From Bifidobacterium sp. ESL0732 (GTDB taxonomy: Bacteria; Actinomycetota; Actinomycetes; Actinomycetales; Bifidobacteriaceae): DNA of 64,000 nucleotides. This document shows, piece after piece, positions 1,054 to 54,712 of this stretch (position 1 is the stretch's first letter; each line of letters begins with the position of its first letter). Under the pieces are notes generated by a model that searched no databases, was not told the origin of the DNA, and worked only from the letters and a program-made list of their open reading frames with translations. The DNA lies in contig NZ_CP113920.1 in the NCBI RefSeq assembly GCF_029395535.1, forward strand, positions 1,612,001 through 1,676,000, given 5' to 3'. Position numbers and translations under genes: made by a program.

Positions 1054-2616
1054 ATGGCTCTGACTCTGGCAACTGCGGTCGAATTGCTTGATAAGCATCA
1101 TCTTTTGCGGGAAATCATCCAAGGCAAGACTTGGTCGCGTAACCCCGCACGTTTTGCGGGTGCCGAAGACGCTTTTAATTCCATCACCTATGACACACGG
1201 CAGGTGCGCGAAGGTTCGTTGCTGTGTTGCAAAGGCCATTTCAAAGCCGACTATCTTTCAGGCTGTGACGAACACGGACTCAAGGCCTACGTTGCGGAAA
1301 CGGACTTCAGCGAGAAAACCGAAGCCATCGGCATTATCGTCGATGACATACGTAAGGCGATGAGTCTGCTTTCCGCCGAATTTTACGGACGGCCACAGGA
1401 CGAACTCACCGTCATCGGCATCACCGGGACCAAGGGCAAAACGACTACCGCCTACTTTGTTCAGTCGATTCTGAACGCTGCCAGCGATGGCAGGGCTGCC
1501 CTGTTCTCGTCAGTGGACAACTGCCTTGACGGACATACCTACACAGCCTCCGCGCTGACCACGCCGGAATCGATGGACGCGTTCCGCATGATGCGCGAGG
1601 CCCTTGATAACGGAATGCGCTACCTGGTGATGGAGGTCTCCTCGCAGGCTTACAAAGTCGAGCGCGTGTACGGGCTCACTTTCGATGTCGGGGCTTTCTT
1701 GAACATCTCCCCCGACCACATCAGCCCCATCGAACATCCTACGTTCGAAGATTATTTGTATTGCAAACGGCAGATTACGACCAACAGCAAGACGTTGGTG
1801 CTGGGAGCTGACTGCGACCACGCCGATCTTATTGAAGAAGACGCTGCGGCCGCGGGCGTTCCTGTTACCACTTTTGCTTTGCACACCAGCGGCGCAACCA
1901 ATAGCGGGACCAAAGCCGACACCGTTGCATGGCCGGCGGATAAAGACCGTACGGCGTTTCATATCGAAGTTGCAGGCACAACCGGCACCTATAAATTGCG
2001 CATGGATGGCGATTTCAACTATGCCAACGCCGCCGCGGCACTGACCATCGCACAGCTTGCCGGTATCGACCTCAATAATAAAAAAATTTCACACGCACTA
2101 GAAAACGTTCGTATTTCGGGGCGCATGGAGCAGTTCAAGGACTCACACGGACCGAATGTCGCCATCGTCGATTATGCGCATAATTTTGCCAGCGTCTCTG
2201 CCCTGATTGACTTCGCGATCGAACGGTATGGCGCAAACAAGCCACGAATTACGCTTGTCAGCGGCTCGGCCGGTGGCAAGGCGGTAGACCGGCGGAAAGA
2301 AATCATCGACGCCGCGCAGCACCGCGTCGACCGCATCATCATCACCAGCGACGACCCCGACAGGGAACGCGCGGAAGATATCTGCGAGACCATGCAAGCT
2401 GCCGTCAACGATCCCAATGTGCAATCAACCGTCATTATCGACAGGCAAAAGGCCGTCGAAACCGCCATCACCGAGGCACAGGCGCACGATGGTTTCGACG
2501 TGCTGCTGATCGTCGGCAAAGGCGAGGAACAGTGGATCAAAGTGGACGGCAAACACGCCCCCTACGAAGGCGACACCCATATCGTTACCAGGTTGTTCGG
2601 CCAAACCCATTCATGA
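1054..2616 (+). CDS. murE: MurE, UDP-MurNAc-tripeptide synthetase (L-Lys/L-Orn type)
   Basis: This cytoplasmic Mur ligase (520 aa) adds the third stem-peptide residue to UDP-MurNAc-L-Ala-D-Glu. It has the N-terminal MurE domain, the ATP-binding loop GTKGKTT at residues 125-131, TTPE at 169-172, EVSS at 194-197, the Mur ligase lysine in CKRQ near 238, and a C-terminal domain. Where diaminopimelate-adding enzymes carry DNPR, this protein has SDDPD at 432-436. Loss of that arginine points to L-Lys or L-Orn as substrate (family knowledge plus inference). An AGAAAGG ribosome binding site precedes the ATG. The next two genes encode a D-aspartate ligase and an aspartate racemase on the same strand. 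It is the only catalytically complete MurE in the window; the dcw copy at 51491-52378 is degenerate. Confidence 0.93.
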   Translation: MALTLATAVELLDKHHLLREIIQGKTWSRNPARFAGAEDAFNSITYDTRQVREGSLLCCKGHFKADYLSGCDEHGLKAYVAETDFSEKTEAIGIIVDDIRKAMSLLSAEFYGRPQDELTVIGITGTKGKTTTAYFVQSILNAASDGRAALFSSVDNCLDGHTYTASALTTPESMDAFRMMREALDNGMRYLVMEVSSQAYKVERVYGLTFDVGAFLNISPDHISPIEHPTFEDYLYCKRQITTNSKTLVLGADCDHADLIEEDAAAAGVPVTTFALHTSGATNSGTKADTVAWPADKDRTAFHIEVAGTTGTYKLRMDGDFNYANAAAALTIAQLAGIDLNNKKISHALENVRISGRMEQFKDSHGPNVAIVDYAHNFASVSALIDFAIERYGANKPRITLVSGSAGGKAVDRRKEIIDAAQHRVDRIIITSDDPDRERAEDICETMQAAVNDPNVQSTVIIDRQKAVETAITEAQAHDGFDVLLIVGKGEEQWIKVDGKHAPYEGDTHIVTRLFGQTHS

Positions 2617-2670: not shown

Positions 2671-3915
2671 ATGAAGCAATTCCAACCGGTACTTTTGGGC
2701 AGCGATATCAACGCCTACGGCATGGCCCGTGCCTTCCACGAGGCGTACGGCATCGTCTCGACTGCCTTCGCGCACTTCCAGCTCGCGCCCACCAGGTTCA
2801 GCAAAATCGTCGACGTCCATATCGTCGACGGATTCGGCCAAGCCGAGACGTTCCGCAAGACGCTGATCGATTACGCCAAAACCTTCAAATCCGGCCATCC
2901 CGGCACCACTCTGCTGCTCATTCCTTGCGGTGACCTGTATGCGAACCTCTTAAGCCATAGCAGCGCGGACCTGGCACCTTACTTCGTTTTCAACACCCTC
3001 GACCCGGCGCTCAACAAGCAGCTGAGCTATAAGAACACGTTCTATGACACCTGCGAGCGTTACGGTCTTCCCTATCCCAAAACCAAGGTCATGACCGAGG
3101 AAAGCGTGGCGCGCGGCGAATACAAGAATCTGCCGTTCAACTTCCCCGTCGCCATGAAACCAGCCGATTCCGCAGCATGGCTCGATATCGACTTCCCGGG
3201 GCGCAAGAAGGCGTTCGTCATCGAGACGCCGGAGGAACTGGACAAGCTCATTAACCTCTCCTACGGCGCCGGCTATCACGCCGAAATGATTCTGCAGGAC
3301 TTCATCCCCGGCGACGACTCTCATATGCGCGTGCTCAACGCCTACGTCGACCGCCATCACCGCGTGCGCATGATGTTCCTCGGCCACCCGCTGCTCGAGG
3401 ACCCGACCCCCGAAGCCGTAGGCAACTACGCGGCCATCATCCCCGATTACAACGAGGAGATATGCCTCAAAATCAAAACGTTCCTCGAGGACATCGGCTA
3501 TGAGGGCGTCGCCAATTTCGACATGAAATACGACGACCGGGACCATACTTACAAGCTTTTCGAGATCAACCTGCGGCAGGGCCGTTCCAGCTATTTCGTC
3601 ACTTTGAACGGCTACAACCTGGCTCGCTATTTCGCTGAGGATTTGGTGGAAGACGCGCCGTTCGACGGCAACACCGTCATCGGCCGCGGCAACAAGCTGT
3701 GGATGGAGATTCCGCGCTCGATTTTCCGCGATTACGTGGTCGAAGGCGAAGATAAGCGTCGGGGCATGAAGATGATCGCTGACGGAGATTGGGGCACGAC
3801 CTTGGAGTATCGCAAGGACATGAACCCGATGCGTTGGCTTTTGATCCGGCACGCGTTCTCGATTTATAAAAAGCGTTACGCGCAGTACTTCAAACAGAAG
3901 GCAGATCTCAAGTGA
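2671..3915 (+). CDS. ATP-grasp ligase, probable D-aspartate ligase for the peptidoglycan cross-bridge
   Basis: This 414-residue protein resembles the ATP-grasp carboxylate-amine ligases that add D-Asp to the side-chain amine of L-Lys in peptidoglycan precursors (Aslfm of Enterococcus faecium). Visible signs are the N-terminal pre-ATP-grasp domain (about 1-110), the nucleotide-binding segment around FPVAMKPADS (about 158-167) and the metal-binding stretch KLFEINLRQGRSS near residue 300. The C-terminal part is basic. The gene lies 54 bases after murE and overlaps the aspartate racemase gene by four bases, so substrate supply and ligation are translationally coupled. Context is the main reason to prefer D-Asp over another amino acid. 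I see no membrane segment. An AGAGG site precedes the ATG. Confidence 0.8.
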   Translation: MKQFQPVLLGSDINAYGMARAFHEAYGIVSTAFAHFQLAPTRFSKIVDVHIVDGFGQAETFRKTLIDYAKTFKSGHPGTTLLLIPCGDLYANLLSHSSADLAPYFVFNTLDPALNKQLSYKNTFYDTCERYGLPYPKTKVMTEESVARGEYKNLPFNFPVAMKPADSAAWLDIDFPGRKKAFVIETPEELDKLINLSYGAGYHAEMILQDFIPGDDSHMRVLNAYVDRHHRVRMMFLGHPLLEDPTPEAVGNYAAIIPDYNEEICLKIKTFLEDIGYEGVANFDMKYDDRDHTYKLFEINLRQGRSSYFVTLNGYNLARYFAEDLVEDAPFDGNTVIGRGNKLWMEIPRSIFRDYVVEGEDKRRGMKMIADGDWGTTLEYRKDMNPMRWLLIRHAFSIYKKRYAQYFKQKADLK

Positions 3916-4643
3916 AACGACCGTTTTTCGCCGTTATTGGCGGCATGGGGACTTTGGCGACCGAATCATATATCCGGCTGATCGACAAGATGAGCGACGC
4001 CGCCACCGATCAGGACTTCCTCGACTATGTGGTGTTCAACGACGCTTCCGTGCCTGACCGAACGGCGTTCATGCTGGGCGATAGCTTCGACGACCCCTTC
4101 CCCGTCATCGCCGATGACATCGCCAAGGCCACAGCCATCGGGGCCAGCTTCATTACGATTCCCTGCAACACCGCGCATTTTATGCTGCCACGTTTCCAGG
4201 AACTTACCGACGTGCCGATTCTCAACATGCTGACCGGCGCCGTGGAACGCATGAAGGCGACTTTGCCCGTCGCAACGCACCCACGCGTCGGTTTCATGGG
4301 CACCGAGGGTTCTCGCCATTCCGGCCTCTACCAGCGTGAAATCGAATCCGCCGGCTACACGTTCATCGAACCCGACGATGAACTGCAGAAGCGCATCGAT
4401 TCGTTGATTTATGACGACGTGAAAAGTGGTGGACCACTAAGCCTTGAGCGCTACCGCTACGTCATCGATACGTTCCTTGACAAGTCTGAGTCGGCTCGCT
4501 ATCGCTGCGATATCGTGGTTCTAGGCTGCACTGAGCTCTCGGTCCTCAATGAGGCCTTCCCGCTCCCTGGCCTTCCCATCATCGATGCCCAAACCATTCT
4601 GGCCGAAGATACTGTGGCGCGCGCGAAGGCACTGCGGCAATAG
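3912..4643 (+). CDS. Aspartate racemase (Asp/Glu racemase family)
   Basis: This 243-residue cofactor-independent racemase of the Asp/Glu/hydantoin racemase family most likely makes D-aspartate from L-aspartate. The two catalytic cysteines sit in typical motifs, PCNTAH (Cys85) and GCTEL (Cys206), and GGMGTLAT at residues 10-17 is the aspartate racemase N-terminal signature. The start is GTG, overlapping the stop of the ATP-grasp gene (GTGA). Together with murE and the ligase it forms an operon for a D-Asp-containing interpeptide bridge. Glutamate racemase is an alternative, but the fusion-like coupling with an Aslfm-type ligase favours aspartate. A perfect 42-bp palindrome follows 45 bases after the stop. 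Confidence 0.88.
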   Translation: MKRPFFAVIGGMGTLATESYIRLIDKMSDAATDQDFLDYVVFNDASVPDRTAFMLGDSFDDPFPVIADDIAKATAIGASFITIPCNTAHFMLPRFQELTDVPILNMLTGAVERMKATLPVATHPRVGFMGTEGSRHSGLYQREIESAGYTFIEPDDELQKRIDSLIYDDVKSGGPLSLERYRYVIDTFLDKSESARYRCDIVVLGCTELSVLNEAFPLPGLPIIDAQTILAEDTVARAKALRQ

Positions 4644-48582: not shown

Positions 48583-49686
48583 CTATATCAGCAGACCGGA
48601 ACGCGAAGCCCAATCCGTATAGAAAATCATGAGACCAATCAGCACGAACATGAACTCAATCATCCAGAAGCGCACGACGACCTTCTGCTCGCTCCAACCT
48701 TTCAGCTCAAAATGATGGTGAATCGGCGCCATCTTGAAAACTCGCTTATGCGTGAGTTTGAAGCAGCCCACCTGGATGACGTCACTCATCGCCTCGATGA
48801 CATATAGTCCGCCGATGATCACGGCAAGGAATTCGGTGTGGGTGGCGATGGAAAGTGCGGCGAAAAGCCCGCCCAAGGCCAAAGAACCGGTATCGCCCAT
48901 GAAAATGGTGGCAGGGTTGGAGTTGTACCAGAGGAAGCCGAAGCAGGCCACAGCGGCGCAGGCCGCGATAATCGTCAGATCCAGCGGATCGGAAACCGCG
49001 TAGGAATAGCCCGGCTTCGGACCGCCCTTGACATGATAACTTTCCCAGAAGGCGATGATAGTGTAACCGGCCAAGGAGATCATCGAGGAGCCGGTGGCCA
49101 GCCCGTCAAGCCCGTCGGTCAGGTTGACGGCGTTGGTCCATGCGATCATCAGGAAATTGACCCAGATTACGAAGACGACGATGGCGACGGCCCTGCCCGC
49201 GAACTCGAAGCTGAAGAAAGGATGCTCAATGAAACTCATGCCCGCCTGGGCAGAGGGAAAACCTGACTTGGTGGGAATAAGCAAAGCCAGCACCGCATAA
49301 ATGGTGGCAAAAACGAATTGGCCGAAGAACTTCCCGCCGACGCTCAACCCGGTGTTCTGCTTTTTACGCACTTTGGCGAAGTCATCGATGAATCCCAGAC
49401 TGCCCATCGACACCATCGCGAAAAGCACCAATACGGCCGACCACGAAACAACCTGGCCGCCAGTCAGTCCACGGTATATCGCGGAAGCACCCCAGCCGAG
49501 CAACACGGCCAGAATGATGACCACGCCACCCATTGTGGCGGTGCCACGTTTCAAAAGATGCGACTGTGGGCCGTCCTGACGGATGTACTGGCCGTAGTGC
49601 AGCCTGTGCACCAGTTTGATCATGGCCGGCGTGCCGATCATCGTGACCAACAGCGAGACCACAATGCCGATGATGAGGGAAATCAA
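48583..49686 (-). CDS. mraY: MraY, phospho-MurNAc-pentapeptide translocase
   Basis: This 367-residue integral membrane enzyme transfers phospho-MurNAc-pentapeptide to undecaprenyl phosphate to make lipid I. It has ten predicted helices, the catalytic DDxxK in [36 protein letters not shown] and [11 protein letters not shown]. The start is a TTG overlapping the murF stop (TTGA), with GGAG upstream; the N-terminus then begins directly with the first membrane helix, as in other MraY proteins. Confidence 0.95.
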
Positions 49687-51389
49687 TGTTTCGGCTCCAC
49701 TTCTTGTTGCGTTTTCTGTTCCATGCCCGCCCAACGTTCGGCCAAAGCGGAAAGCCCCGAAAAATGCGAACCTTTAAGCAGCACAACAGTGTCTTGGTGA
49801 CGCCGTGCGATTTGTGCGACCAACCGCTCGGCGTCGACGGCGCTATGTACCCATTGCACCACGACGGGGGTACGCTGCGGTCCGTCTGAAGCAATGGTTG
49901 TATCACAAACTGTATCGGCTGGTGCAGCCTCAGATGATGCGCTGCCACCCGACACGTCACCAGTAACCTGCAGCCCTTCGGCACCTTGCGCCAACGCGTG
50001 TGCCAGATCGTCAAAATGCTTGTCGATTTCGTTGCCCACCGCGATAATCTCATCGAGCCCGAGGGATGCGGCGTAGGCACCGATCTGGCGGTGTAGCTTC
50101 AGCTCGTCGTCTCCCAGTTCGAGCATCGCGCCCAGAACGGCGACACGGTAGGGCTTTGGTTTGCTTGCGGTGCTATCGGTTTTATCTTGCGTTTTCTTTT
50201 CCGACGGCTCATCAGGTGCTTCCCAACGGGCCAGCCCGTCAAGTCCGGCCCGCATGGAATCAGGATTGGCGTTGAAGGAATCGTCGATAAGCGTAAAGGA
50301 GCCTGAACCTTCACCCAGATCGACCAACGATACGGCCATGCGGTGCGGACTGATATGTTTGACGTCGCCAAGACCTTCGGCGATGTCGGTGAGAGGCATA
50401 CCAAAATAATCAGCCACCGTGGCGGCGGCCAATGCGTTGATGACGTTGTGCGCTCCGCCGATACCCAAATGCACCTGGGCCATTTCGCCGTTCGGGGCCA
50501 CCAGTGTAAAGCTGGGACGGTCGAGCGTGTCGACGCTAATATTGGCAGCGGTCATTTTTTTTGATTGAGGCTGCGCCTCGCCATTCAAACCGAACCAAAG
50601 CACATCACCGGGCGCAAATTTCGTCATCGCCGCCACGCGTTTGTCGTCAGCGTTCAAGACGGTGACGCCGCTTGGCACCAAGCCTTGCACTATTTCGCTT
50701 TTGGCCTGTGCTATACGTTCCACGGAACCGAACTCGCCCAAGTGAGCCACGCCGACTTTCAGCACCACGGCCAAATCCGGAGGCACGATGCGTGTCAGAT
50801 TCGCGATTTCGCCGACATGGTTGGCACCCATTTCGGCGACGAAAAAGCGGGTGCGCTCCCCCACCTTCAATGCGGTCAACGGCAGGCCGATGTCGTTATT
50901 GAACGAACCCACCGGAGCCACGGTTTCGCCAAGCTTGTCCATCAGCGATCGCAGAAGATCTTTGGTGGTCGTCTTGCCGACCGAACCGGTGATGCCGATA
51001 ACGGAAAAATCTTTATTCGACTGCCGGCGACGCACGATATTGTGCTGCGCCAAATGTCCCAAAGCGGCAACAGTGTCGTCCACCACAATCTGAGCAATGC
51101 CGTCCGCACCGGCCACCACGTGGTCGACCAAAGCCGCCACCGCACCTTTCGCACCGGCACCGGCCACGAAATCATGCCCGTCGACATGCTCGCCTTTGAT
51201 GGCAACGAACACCGATCCGTTTGTGATTTGCCGCGAATCGCTGAATACCGAAGTGGCCACGGCCCCATCAGGCACCGCATAACCGGGACCCGAAACGATG
51301 CGGCCACCGACTGTCTGCGCAATCTCCTCGATTGTCATCGGCATCATGCCGGATTCGCTATCCGAAGTTCCGGTCATCTTAGCGCTCAA
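49683..51389 (-). CDS. murF: MurF, UDP-MurNAc-tripeptide--D-Ala-D-Ala ligase
   Basis: This roughly 568-residue Mur ligase attaches D-Ala-D-Ala to the stem tripeptide. It has the N-terminal MurF domain (DSRQITNGSVFVAIKG), the ATP loop GITGSVGKTTTKD, MGANHVGEI and FTLIDDSFNANPDS. Two polar insertions (a Ser/Lys/Thr-rich stretch after the third domain begins, and VSGGSASSEAAPADTV near the C-terminus) make it longer than usual. A TTG at 51389 with AAAGGTGG six bases upstream is the likeliest start; an ATG seven codons earlier and one four codons later are alternatives. Confidence 0.93.
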   Translation of the reverse strand: MSAKMTGTSDSESGMMPMTIEEIAQTVGGRIVSGPGYAVPDGAVATSVFSDSRQITNGSVFVAIKGEHVDGHDFVAGAGAKGAVAALVDHVVAGADGIAQIVVDDTVAALGHLAQHNIVRRRQSNKDFSVIGITGSVGKTTTKDLLRSLMDKLGETVAPVGSFNNDIGLPLTALKVGERTRFFVAEMGANHVGEIANLTRIVPPDLAVVLKVGVAHLGEFGSVERIAQAKSEIVQGLVPSGVTVLNADDKRVAAMTKFAPGDVLWFGLNGEAQPQSKKMTAANISVDTLDRPSFTLVAPNGEMAQVHLGIGGAHNVINALAAATVADYFGMPLTDIAEGLGDVKHISPHRMAVSLVDLGEGSGSFTLIDDSFNANPDSMRAGLDGLARWEAPDEPSEKKTQDKTDSTASKPKPYRVAVLGAMLELGDDELKLHRQIGAYAASLGLDEIIAVGNEIDKHFDDLAHALAQGAEGLQVTGDVSGGSASSEAAPADTVCDTTIASDGPQRTPVVVQWVHSAVDAERLVAQIARRHQDTVVLLKGSHFSGLSALAERWAGMEQKTQQEVEPKH

Positions 51390-51490
51390 CGTATGCCACC
51401 TTTTGTCCATATATCTTTAATATTGCCAGCAAAGCAAACCGTAGTCAGTCTGTACACAACATGCCAGACGAAATACCGTCGCAAAAGCTT

Positions 51491-52378
51491 TCATTGCATT
51501 TCCTTCGAAACGCGCAGGGCATTGCGAATGTTGCTACGACGGACCCCTGCATCCAAAGCCATCGCGATCGCCAAGGAAAGACGACGCTGGCCCTGCAAGC
51601 CACCTGCCACACTCGCCTGTCCGGCCAACCAGCTGGACTCCTCGTCACAAGTGACCAGACGCTTGCGTTCGTCAATCGAGAAACCGTACAGGTTTTGCAC
51701 CGACTCGAGCACATGAGCCCCTTGGGCCTTGTTCAGCATTTCGATGGAACCCAAAACATCGACGCTGACACCTTCAAGCGCGCCTGGGCGCAGAGTCTGA
51801 TTATCAGCGGAAATCACCATCGCCGCAGCACCGTCCTCAGAGCAGACGGCAAGCGTGTGCTGAACATCAAGAATCCCCAAAGGATAAGTCAATTCCAGTT
51901 CACGCTCCAACGAACTGGAACCAGATCTGCTCACGATGCCCACAGGATTACCAAGCATATGCAGGAAATCGGCCAGACGAACCACATCGGCCTGAACCTC
52001 TTCGTCATCCTCACCACAGACGACGAACACGGCCATGGTATTGGCCGGAGTTCCCGCGATGTCAGAGGCCAGCTCACCCATGGTTTCCTGGTCGGGAACG
52101 GAAAGCAAAGCCGGGACACCTACCGATTGTGCCTGCGAAAGCAAAGATGGCGGCACCAAAACCGCATAGGCGCCACGAGCCACAGCCAACGAAAGCAACG
52201 AGGGGTCGTCATTGCTTTTCAGAATGTAAAGAGCCCCCGGACGCACCGAATTCGGGCTATCAGCGATCGAGGTGACCGTAACGCCGTCGGCGAATTTAGG
52301 TTCAAGCCCAAAGCCATAGTGACTGGCGATATAGCCCAAAGTCACACGCCGCGAAATCGATTCGCTTACCACGCTCAT
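51491..52378 (-). CDS. MurE-like pseudoenzyme in the murE position of the dcw cluster
   Basis: This 295-residue protein lies between ftsI and murF, where murE normally is. Its N-terminal part (VTSIADSPNSVRPGALYILKS ... AVARGAYAVLVPPS) follows the MurE N-terminal domain (DSR-V-pG-lF). The next part keeps the central-domain outline, but the ATP loop is replaced by VFVVCGEDDEEV, TTP by TYPLGI and EVSSHAL by ISADNQTL. The end (GQRRLSLAIAMALDAGVRRSNIRNALRV) matches the NalAAiaaal segment closing the central domain. The C-terminal ligase domain is absent. GGAAAGG precedes the ATG, and the frame is intact, so it is probably expressed as a non-catalytic scaffold or regulator rather than being a decaying pseudogene. 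Confidence 0.78.
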   Translation of the reverse strand: MSVVSESISRRVTLGYIASHYGFGLEPKFADGVTVTSIADSPNSVRPGALYILKSNDDPSLLSLAVARGAYAVLVPPSLLSQAQSVGVPALLSVPDQETMGELASDIAGTPANTMAVFVVCGEDDEEVQADVVRLADFLHMLGNPVGIVSRSGSSSLERELELTYPLGILDVQHTLAVCSEDGAAAMVISADNQTLRPGALEGVSVDVLGSIEMLNKAQGAHVLESVQNLYGFSIDERKRLVTCDEESSWLAGQASVAGGLQGQRRLSLAIAMALDAGVRRSNIRNALRVSKEMQ

Positions 52379-52460
52379 GCTTCGACCTTTCCCGCAGGAA
52401 ACGTCGGGTAGCGGCCAGCTGCCACTGCTCTGTCCCGTTTCATGCTGTTATCACCATTTG

Positions 52461-54266
52461 TCACCACGTCACAGGAATAGCATTGTTGCGAGGCTGGGAG
52501 GGAGGGACCTCGTACTTCTGCATAAGGAATTCACCGATTTGCTTGAACAACGCACCGCTGGTGAGACCGCCGTAGATGCCCTGAGGATTGCGCATCACCA
52601 CAGTAAGCACGAAACGCGGATTGTCGGCGGGAAGGATGCCCGAAAAATCGCTGACGATGCTGTCGAGTGCGCCGGTTGGACCGGCCACCTGTGCGGTTCC
52701 CGACTTGCCGGCGACGCGATAGCCGTCGACACCAGTCGTTTTCGCGTATTCCTCGCCTGAAGACTCCATCGCATTCATCAGCTGCGCGTTCACGTTGGCA
52801 TCCATGATGCGTGTGCCCTCATCCAACGGCTGCTTGGTAACATGGCCGTCGGCATCGACCGTCGAATCGACGATGGAAGGCTTGCGGTAGATGCCGCCGT
52901 CGCCAATGGCTGCGATGGCATTGGTCAATTGGACGACGTTGGTGGCATAACCCTGGCCGAACAGTATGGTGTCGCGTGTGCGCTTGTCCCATGCGTTCGG
53001 ATTGGTCAACGTCCCGCGTGACTCCCCAGGCAGGTTAAGGCCTGTGGGCTGGCCGATGCCGAATTTGGTGAGCATGTCGTAACGGTCCTGGTCTTTGTAA
53101 TCGTTGGAAGACATGACCATGCCGACGTTAGAAGATTGCTGGAGGATGCCGGCCAACGTCCAATTGGAAAGGGGATGCGGCGTGACGTCAGTGAAAACCT
53201 GGCCGTTTTTATCGAGTCTATCGGGAACCTGGAAATGATCGGTCATCTGATGGATACCATGCTGCAACAATCCCGCCATTGAGAAGGTCTTACCAATCGA
53301 GCCGGGTTCAAAGGTTTCCGAAACCGCACGGGAGACGCTGAGCTTGGCCTGATCGCTGCCGGCCTGAACATCGTCGGAATCGTCGAGGGCGATAATCTGA
53401 TGGGTGCGAATGTCTTCGACGCAGGCAATAGCCCAATCCGCTTTGTATTGGTCCTTGCCGTCTTTCAACACCTTTTTGACGAACCAATCGACGTCGGAAT
53501 CAATGGTCAGCTTGACATCGCTGCCGTTGCGGGCAGCTTGCGAATCGGTCAACGTGCCGGGAATTTCGACACCGTTGTTGCCCTGTTGGTAGATCTTGTA
53601 TCCGTCTTTGCCGGCAAGCGTCGAGTTCTGAACCTGTTCCATTCCCGAAACGCCATTGGTCTTGTCGTCGACGCCGCCGAGGAAGGCACCCATGAGCGTG
53701 CCGTCGGAATAGACGCGGTTCTGCGAAAGCTCACCGTAGACGATGCCGCCAAGACCAAGTTTGTCAAGCTTGCGTTTGGCCGCGGGTTCCACGTCCTTTT
53801 TCAAGACAGCATAACGGCCTGGGCCGGCAAGCTTGCCGCCAAGCTCCATGGCATCCATGCCCAGTATCGGAGCAGCCATCCTCGCCACACGCGCGGCACC
53901 GACCACGCCAAGTGTCTTACCGCCGTCTTTCTTTGTCTGGGTGCAATTGTCGGTGATCTGTGTGCTGCAGATCGGGTCGTATTCCTGAGCGGCCTTCGGA
54001 TCGCCGATGATGGTATAACGCTCCACGCTTTGCGCCAAAACGGCTCCGTTGCTGTCCAGTATCTTGCCCCGCATACCATGGACGGGCACTTTGAGCGTCC
54101 GTCCTGCCGTGGCAGCCTCAGCCATCTCGCGGCCGTTGAGCAACTGAAGATTGGCCAATTGGCCAAAGCACACAACGAATACGAGCGCAAGCACCGTGGC
54201 GATCACGGCGCAACGCGACACGAATTGCTTGCCTTTGGTTTTATTGGCGTAGGAACGCATAATCAT
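52461..54266 (-). CDS. ftsI: FtsI/PBP3, septal peptidoglycan transpeptidase
   Basis: This 601-residue class B penicillin-binding protein crosslinks septal peptidoglycan. A short cytoplasmic N-terminus and one membrane helix (about 18-38) are followed by the dimerisation domain (VPVHGMRGKILDSNGAVLAQS) and a transpeptidase domain with SIGK as the active-site SxxK, SSN and KSG(T). No PASTA repeats are present. Its ATG overlaps the ftsL-like stop by four bases. Because it acts on precursors that probably carry a D-Asp bridge, its acceptor site should accommodate that bridge. Confidence 0.95.
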   Translation of the reverse strand: MIMRSYANKTKGKQFVSRCAVIATVLALVFVVCFGQLANLQLLNGREMAEAATAGRTLKVPVHGMRGKILDSNGAVLAQSVERYTIIGDPKAAQEYDPICSTQITDNCTQTKKDGGKTLGVVGAARVARMAAPILGMDAMELGGKLAGPGRYAVLKKDVEPAAKRKLDKLGLGGIVYGELSQNRVYSDGTLMGAFLGGVDDKTNGVSGMEQVQNSTLAGKDGYKIYQQGNNGVEIPGTLTDSQAARNGSDVKLTIDSDVDWFVKKVLKDGKDQYKADWAIACVEDIRTHQIIALDDSDDVQAGSDQAKLSVSRAVSETFEPGSIGKTFSMAGLLQHGIHQMTDHFQVPDRLDKNGQVFTDVTPHPLSNWTLAGILQQSSNVGMVMSSNDYKDQDRYDMLTKFGIGQPTGLNLPGESRGTLTNPNAWDKRTRDTILFGQGYATNVVQLTNAIAAIGDGGIYRKPSIVDSTVDADGHVTKQPLDEGTRIMDANVNAQLMNAMESSGEEYAKTTGVDGYRVAGKSGTAQVAGPTGALDSIVSDFSGILPADNPRFVLTVVMRNPQGIYGGLTSGALFKQIGEFLMQKYEVPPSQPRNNAIPVTW

Positions 54267-54712
54267 TGACCCTTATCCGTAGGTTGGTATCCCTGAAGAT
54301 CTATCGACAATGGACCGGACTGAGGAACCATGCCCATTTTCTGGGCGCGGTCGGGAAGACTCGCCTGCAGGCTGTCAAGCTGCGCCTCGTCGTCCTCGAC
54401 ATCCTGATTGAGCTTGCTGATGTTGGCCTGCACCTGAGCCTGTTGGAAGGAATTCTGCACCATTTGTGTGCGCAGAGCCAACGACCCGAGCAATGCGGCG
54501 AAAAGGAAGATCACCGCGATGATGACATGGACCACCGAAACCGTATTGATCCTGCTGAAAATACCGGCAGCGAGATTTTCACTGTCTTTTTTCGCTTTGC
54601 CGCCGGCGACGACCTGGAGCTCGGGACGGGAAGACGTCGTGCGGTTATCGTCTTCACGGCCGGCTGGTGCGACACGGGAGCGAACCGATCTTGCTGTGGC
54701 GCTGCTCATCAT
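54263..54712 (-). CDS. ftsL: FtsL-like divisome protein
   Basis: This 149-residue protein occupies the ftsL position between rsmH and ftsI. It has a polar, Arg/Ser-rich cytoplasmic stretch (1-55), one membrane helix (about 58-80, VVHVIIAVIFLFAALLGSLA) and an extracytoplasmic heptad-like coiled coil (about 84-120), then a Pro-rich tail. Sequence conservation of FtsL is low, so the assignment rests on architecture and position. Its start overlaps the rsmH stop (ATGA) and its stop overlaps the ftsI start. AGGAGGGA lies just before the ATG. Confidence 0.85.
   Translation of the reverse strand: MMSSATARSVRSRVAPAGREDDNRTTSSRPELQVVAGGKAKKDSENLAAGIFSRINTVSVVHVIIAVIFLFAALLGSLALRTQMVQNSFQQAQVQANISKLNQDVEDDEAQLDSLQASLPDRAQKMGMVPQSGPLSIDLQGYQPTDKGQ

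Follow-up and report, generated by a model that had tools for sequence, protein, structure and literature searches.

The window, a 64,000-nucleotide stretch of the 2.39-Mb, single-contig genome of Bifidobacterium sp. ESL0732, carries a dcw cluster in which the open reading frame of a 295-residue MurE-derived pseudoenzyme lies between ftsI and murF, separated from them by gaps of 82 and 80 nt. The genes and the translation signal that bear on this protein are as follows.

54263..54712, (-) strand: ftsL, second gene upstream of the pseudoenzyme gene, rate-covarying with it
52461..54266, (-) strand: ftsI (septal transpeptidase), upstream neighbour, rate-covarying with the pseudoenzyme
52386..52393, (-) strand: likely ribosome binding site GGGAAAGG, 7 nt before the ATG (sequence)
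51491..52378, (-) strand: MurE-derived pseudoenzyme, 295 residues, ATG start (open reading frame, MurE models, profile, AlphaFold model, structural alignment)
49683..51410, (-) strand: murF, intact Mur ligase, downstream neighbour
1054..2616, (+) strand: catalytically complete MurE of the genome, outside the dcw cluster

A preliminary description had reported a clean frame with a good ribosome binding site in a tightly packed dcw operon, and this was borne out; a purine-rich stretch similar to GGGAAAGG also precedes the gene in most relatives. The order ftsI–pseudoenzyme–murF was found at all Bifidobacteriaceae loci inspected except those of genus g12, where it holds on the murF side only. In other families of the order, 28 of 30 sampled loci place a catalytic MurE after ftsI, before murF or, in most cases, between the two, and the position of the pseudoenzyme is the slot of catalytic murE in those families. 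An overlapping antisense gene at 51461-52411 was rejected, since just 7 of 60 relatives keep its frame open, as was a fusion with FtsI or MurF, where the long open frames of two genomes come from frames that overlap in GC-rich DNA.

Residues 31-208 of the pseudoenzyme match NCBIfam MurE models with E values between 8e-8 and 2e-3, at scores that fall far short of the model cut-offs (23.4 bits for TIGR01085, against a curated 257.3), and 54 of 56 relatives matched a MurE model. Searched against the PDB, a profile of the family retrieved MurE and MurE-like chains at E values of 2.4e-14 and weaker. No Pfam model matched above its cut-off, and a weak match to YmgD (E 0.048) was taken as chance. AlphaFold modelled the protein with confidence (mean pLDDT 92.4, pTM 0.88), and Foldseek with VIA-align ranked mycobacterial MurE (Z 23.8) and the plastid MurE-like protein PAP11 (Z 23.1) at the top. 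Superposition on mycobacterial MurE aligns 286 residues over MurE residues 0-345 of 508, so the pseudoenzyme consists of the N-terminal and central domains without the C-terminal domain. The retained two-domain outline that had been read from the letters is thus recovered by both profile and fold, and structure prediction, which could have revealed a fold unrelated to Mur ligases, did not. From sequence and modelled structure, we conclude that the pseudoenzyme is homologous to MurE.

What has been lost from the MurE body lies at these positions.

52049..52378, (-) strand: MurE N-terminal domain, residues 1-110, with the HG..F loop replaced (alignment, model)
51494..52048, (-) strand: MurE central domain with internal deletions, residues 111-295, ending before the C-terminal domain
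51995..52024, (-) strand: degenerate P-loop, residues 119-128, VVCGEDDEEV against GVTGTNGKTT in MurE (alignment)
51881..51889, (-) strand: TYP, residues 164-166, where MurE has TTP (alignment)
51791..51814, (-) strand: ISADNQTL, residues 189-196, where MurE has MEVSSHAL (alignment)

Motif loss was checked in 20 representative relatives spread over the Bifidobacteriaceae. The P-loop GTNGKT reads GEDDEE in the pseudoenzyme, and GKT, TTP and EVSS are present in none of the 20; their HG..F loop is replaced as well. In the pseudoenzyme and all 20 relatives, the FTNL..DHLDFH and ..AK.. segment (with the carbamylated lysine) is deleted or unalignable, and everything from VPGRME onwards is absent, including the amino-acid specificity motif (DNPR or equivalent); the P-loop, TTP, EVSS and HG..F loop sites vary between species. 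The alignment therefore upholds the reported absence of the ATP loop, the TTP and EVSS motifs and the C-terminal domain. The nucleotide and substrate contacts among these residues are established from MurE structures. They are partly confirmed in PMC3829189. Judged from these losses in sequence, the pseudoenzyme is predicted to be incapable of ligase activity by the known mechanism. Binding of UDP-MurNAc-dipeptide, which had been offered as one possible function, is likewise disfavoured: every relative examined has lost the C-terminal domain along with the HG..F loop and the TTP and EVSS segments.

Six Mur-ligase central-domain matches were found in the genome, none of them the pseudoenzyme. 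The protein encoded at 1054-2616 matches an NCBIfam MurE equivalog above cut-off, in agreement with the separate MurE proposed there earlier. In the phylogenetic tree, the pseudoenzymes all fall in one long-stemmed clade (support 100), apart from a second group (support 98) that holds the catalytic MurEs of Bifidobacteriaceae; because of its long branch, the parental MurE lineage of the pseudoenzyme is not decided by the tree. Two genera lack the pseudoenzyme: at the three loci inspected, murF comes straight after ftsI, leaving the slot empty, and a different MurE is encoded elsewhere. These genera appear to resemble Ancillula and Opitulatrix, termite endosymbionts that are sister to other Bifidobacteriaceae (PMC11707648). 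A family-profile search of genera g4 and g10 found no pseudoenzyme, its sole match being part of an ordinary MurE. Most simply, MurE activity would have left the slot at or before the origin of the family; the endosymbionts would have discarded the slot copy, and the remaining members would have put it to a new use.

Several observations concern the active MurE and its surroundings. It is present in two tandem copies in several Bifidobacterium genomes (six loci), and one genome encodes an extra near-canonical MurE besides the pseudoenzyme, which may be a transfer or contamination. Beside the active MurE, at 2671-4643 of the window, lie a 414-residue open reading frame without any Pfam match, which on reading looks like an ATP-grasp ligase and stays beside MurE in several genomes, and an aspartate racemase; the two together may make a D-Asp cross-bridge.

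The pseudoenzyme gene is present in 177 of 189 Bifidobacteriaceae genomes and in all 161 near-complete ones, and no internal stops were found among the matches listed. Where close-pair dN/dS was measurable, it was 0.046-0.273 for the pseudoenzyme, against 0.028-0.300 for murF; neither relaxed selection nor frequent frameshifts were found, and the protein can be described, as first suggested, as a conserved, non-catalytic Mur-ligase fold under purifying selection. Its mean distance (0.81-0.94) is the highest among the genes compared. About 30 residues are near-invariant across the family, and two conserved segments stand out.

51938..51964, (-) strand: signature LHMLGNPVG, residues 139-147; L139, H140, G143, N144 and P145 in 60/60 relatives, L142 in 59/60
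51830..51838, (-) strand: EDG, residues 181-183; E181 and G183 invariant, D182 replaced by E in genus g12 only

Conserved residues unlike those of catalytic MurE include T34, Y71, F118, H140, N144, P145, S156 and D182. In the AlphaFold model, H140-P145, E181-G183 and D207 lie at turns into central-domain strands, and a conserved surface (H140-x-L-G-N-P, E-D-G and D207) is predicted, from topology and not from coordinates, at the end of the central domain that lies farthest from the P-loop. A scan of 84,980 genomes for LHxLGNPV, which would miss relatives without that exact pattern, returned 102 relatives; the 80 listed were all Bifidobacteriaceae records, and a wide spread outside the family was rejected on that basis. 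Long insertions inside the pseudoenzyme, for a total length of 351-413 residues, were seen at seven loci.

Rate covariation with neighbouring genes was computed after removing shared rate and GC difference, in one panel of 50 genomes and a second of 49 genomes that covered more genera and included the active MurE. The pseudoenzyme covaried with FtsL (0.50 and 0.41 in the two panels) and with FtsI (0.45 and 0.42; permutation P about 0.0005 for each pair in the panel of 49), values about equal to those of the reference pair FtsL–FtsI, a known complex (0.51 and 0.43), although proteins may also covary in this way because they belong to one fast-evolving class. FtsW was unstable (0.32, then 0.08) and MraY weakly positive (0.21 and 0.23). 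There was no covariation with MurF (-0.11 and -0.02) or MurD (-0.08 and 0.02) in either panel, nor with MurG (-0.16) or the active MurE (-0.14) in the panel of 49. Since MurF lies as near on the chromosome as FtsI, linkage alone does not account for this pattern. With species shared between the panels and few control genes, we treat the covariation as moderate evidence.

The contrast between FtsL and FtsI, which covary with the pseudoenzyme, and MurF, MurD, MurG and the active MurE, which do not, makes a divisome partner more plausible than a substrate binder or a Mur scaffold. Our tentative reading, to which we give a probability of roughly 0.4, is that the pseudoenzyme is a remnant of the dcw-slot MurE reused as a non-enzymatic cytoplasmic partner of the divisome. 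Synteny and the long-branch tree suggest that the family ancestor adopted a MurE encoded elsewhere, which would have freed the slot copy from catalysis. To judge from the alignments, that copy then lost ATP binding, the substrate motifs and the C-terminal domain, while every near-complete genome of the family kept the folded N-terminal and central domains, on which purifying selection is strong. A pre-existing non-catalytic job of the slot MurE, cytoplasmic docking to the division apparatus, would have been retained, with docking most likely near the FtsL–FtsI complex. In Mycobacterium tuberculosis, catalytic Mur synthetases interacted with the SepF orthologue, Wag31, FtsZ, FtsW and FtsQ but showed no interaction among themselves (PMC3605390); taken with the FtsL and FtsI covariation, these interactions lead us to prefer a mechanism in which the docking function outlived catalysis. 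Of the three roles first put forward, coupling of synthesis to division is the one that the rates favour, short of proof. We are more doubtful of the stronger form of this reading, in which a displaced precursor enzyme became an essential structural divisome subunit throughout the family, linking cytoplasmic precursor synthesis to FtsL–FtsI and absent from other bacteria.

Genus g12 (two loci) is the main counter-evidence. Its genomes are 0.6-0.9 Mb, and its cluster reads mraW–pseudoMurE–murF–mraY–murD–murG–murC: ftsL, ftsI and ftsW are gone, and ftsQ was not detected in the genus. In the g12 genomes tested, FtsZ is present, but only one SEDS protein and two transpeptidases remain; such cells may divide with the elongation pair alone. 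The pseudoenzyme remains next to murF with a dN/dS of about 0.05, and S156 and D182, invariant in 53 other relatives, are altered. Because g12 has lost ftsL, ftsI and ftsW yet keeps the gene, FtsL–FtsI cannot be the sole partner everywhere, and this retention leaves room for a role in the precursor pathway. In such a role, the pseudoenzyme would be a scaffold or activator that brings together MurF, MraY or the relocated active MurE, replacing a lost MurE–MurF contact. The g12 cluster, which retains the mur genes and mraY with the pseudoenzyme after fts loss, is consistent with such a scaffold, as are the MurE–MurF fusions of Bordetella and their binding of MurG (PMC6420597), the co-occurrence of the pseudoenzyme with the bifidobacterial-type MurE, both being missing from the termite-endosymbiont-like genera, and the weakly positive MraY covariation. 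We nevertheless consider it unlikely, if a serious contender: the rates give little support to the scaffolding of other Mur enzymes that had been suggested at the outset, Mur–Mur binding was not seen in the M. tuberculosis assay (PMC3605390), and the two genomes whose frames are very long show no MurF fusion.

Two further alternatives to a divisome partner seem improbable to us. A ligand sensor, whose degenerate cleft would bind a wall precursor or nucleotide and report its level to wall synthesis or division, would suit the two-domain MurE body that the model shows intact, but the P-loop, TTP, EVSS and HG..F loop are lost and species-variable, and many of the kept residues, judged from secondary structure, lie at the opposite pole. 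A chaperone-like partner, which another Mur ligase or FtsI at the membrane would need in order to fold or stay stable, with neither signalling nor scaffolding, would be in keeping with the strong constraint on the fold and the co-occurrence with the bifidobacterial MurE, but is at odds with the lack of covariation with the active MurE and strikes us as equally improbable. A decaying pseudogene, or a coding spacer maintained by operon structure only, might be suspected from the disappearance of all catalytic motifs and the fast evolution of the protein, but we reject it given frames open in every near-complete genome, dN/dS well under 1, some 30 near-invariant residues, a confident fold and retention in genomes of 0.6-0.9 Mb.

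Mur ligases are antibiotic targets, and it is debated whether they also act structurally, apart from catalysis. Bifidobacteria separate the two, with catalysis in another protein and a dead operon copy under strong selection; non-catalytic Mur functions are thus testable in common gut bacteria by deletion of one gene, with the precursor enzyme untouched. The core of the bifidobacterial division cluster, moreover, holds a protein that no Pfam model recognizes above cut-off, and we found no description of it in the literature searched, which omits most subscription journals.

Mur-derived proteins in structural roles are already known in PAP11, and MurE–MurF is known as a bifunctional fusion. PAP11 is a MurE-derived structural subunit of the plastid RNA polymerase. 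PAP11 and plastid MurE-like proteins (8r6s, 8qma, 8xzv) are among the best sequence and fold matches of the pseudoenzyme, but PAP11 is a plant plastid protein of 768 residues that keeps the GTNGKT loop (by alignment) and serves an unrelated machine. With mycobacterial-type MurE (2wtz, 2xja, 8g6p) the pseudoenzyme shares the N-terminal and central fold, the dcw slot between ftsI and murF and a weak but significant sequence similarity; it differs in having no P-loop, TTP, EVSS, carbamyl-lysine segment or C-terminal domain. The Bordetella MurE–MurF fusion (8f5d, the best profile match; PMC6420597) likewise couples a MurE body to MurF, but both of its halves are ligases, whereas the bifidobacterial pseudoenzyme is a separate, dead protein.
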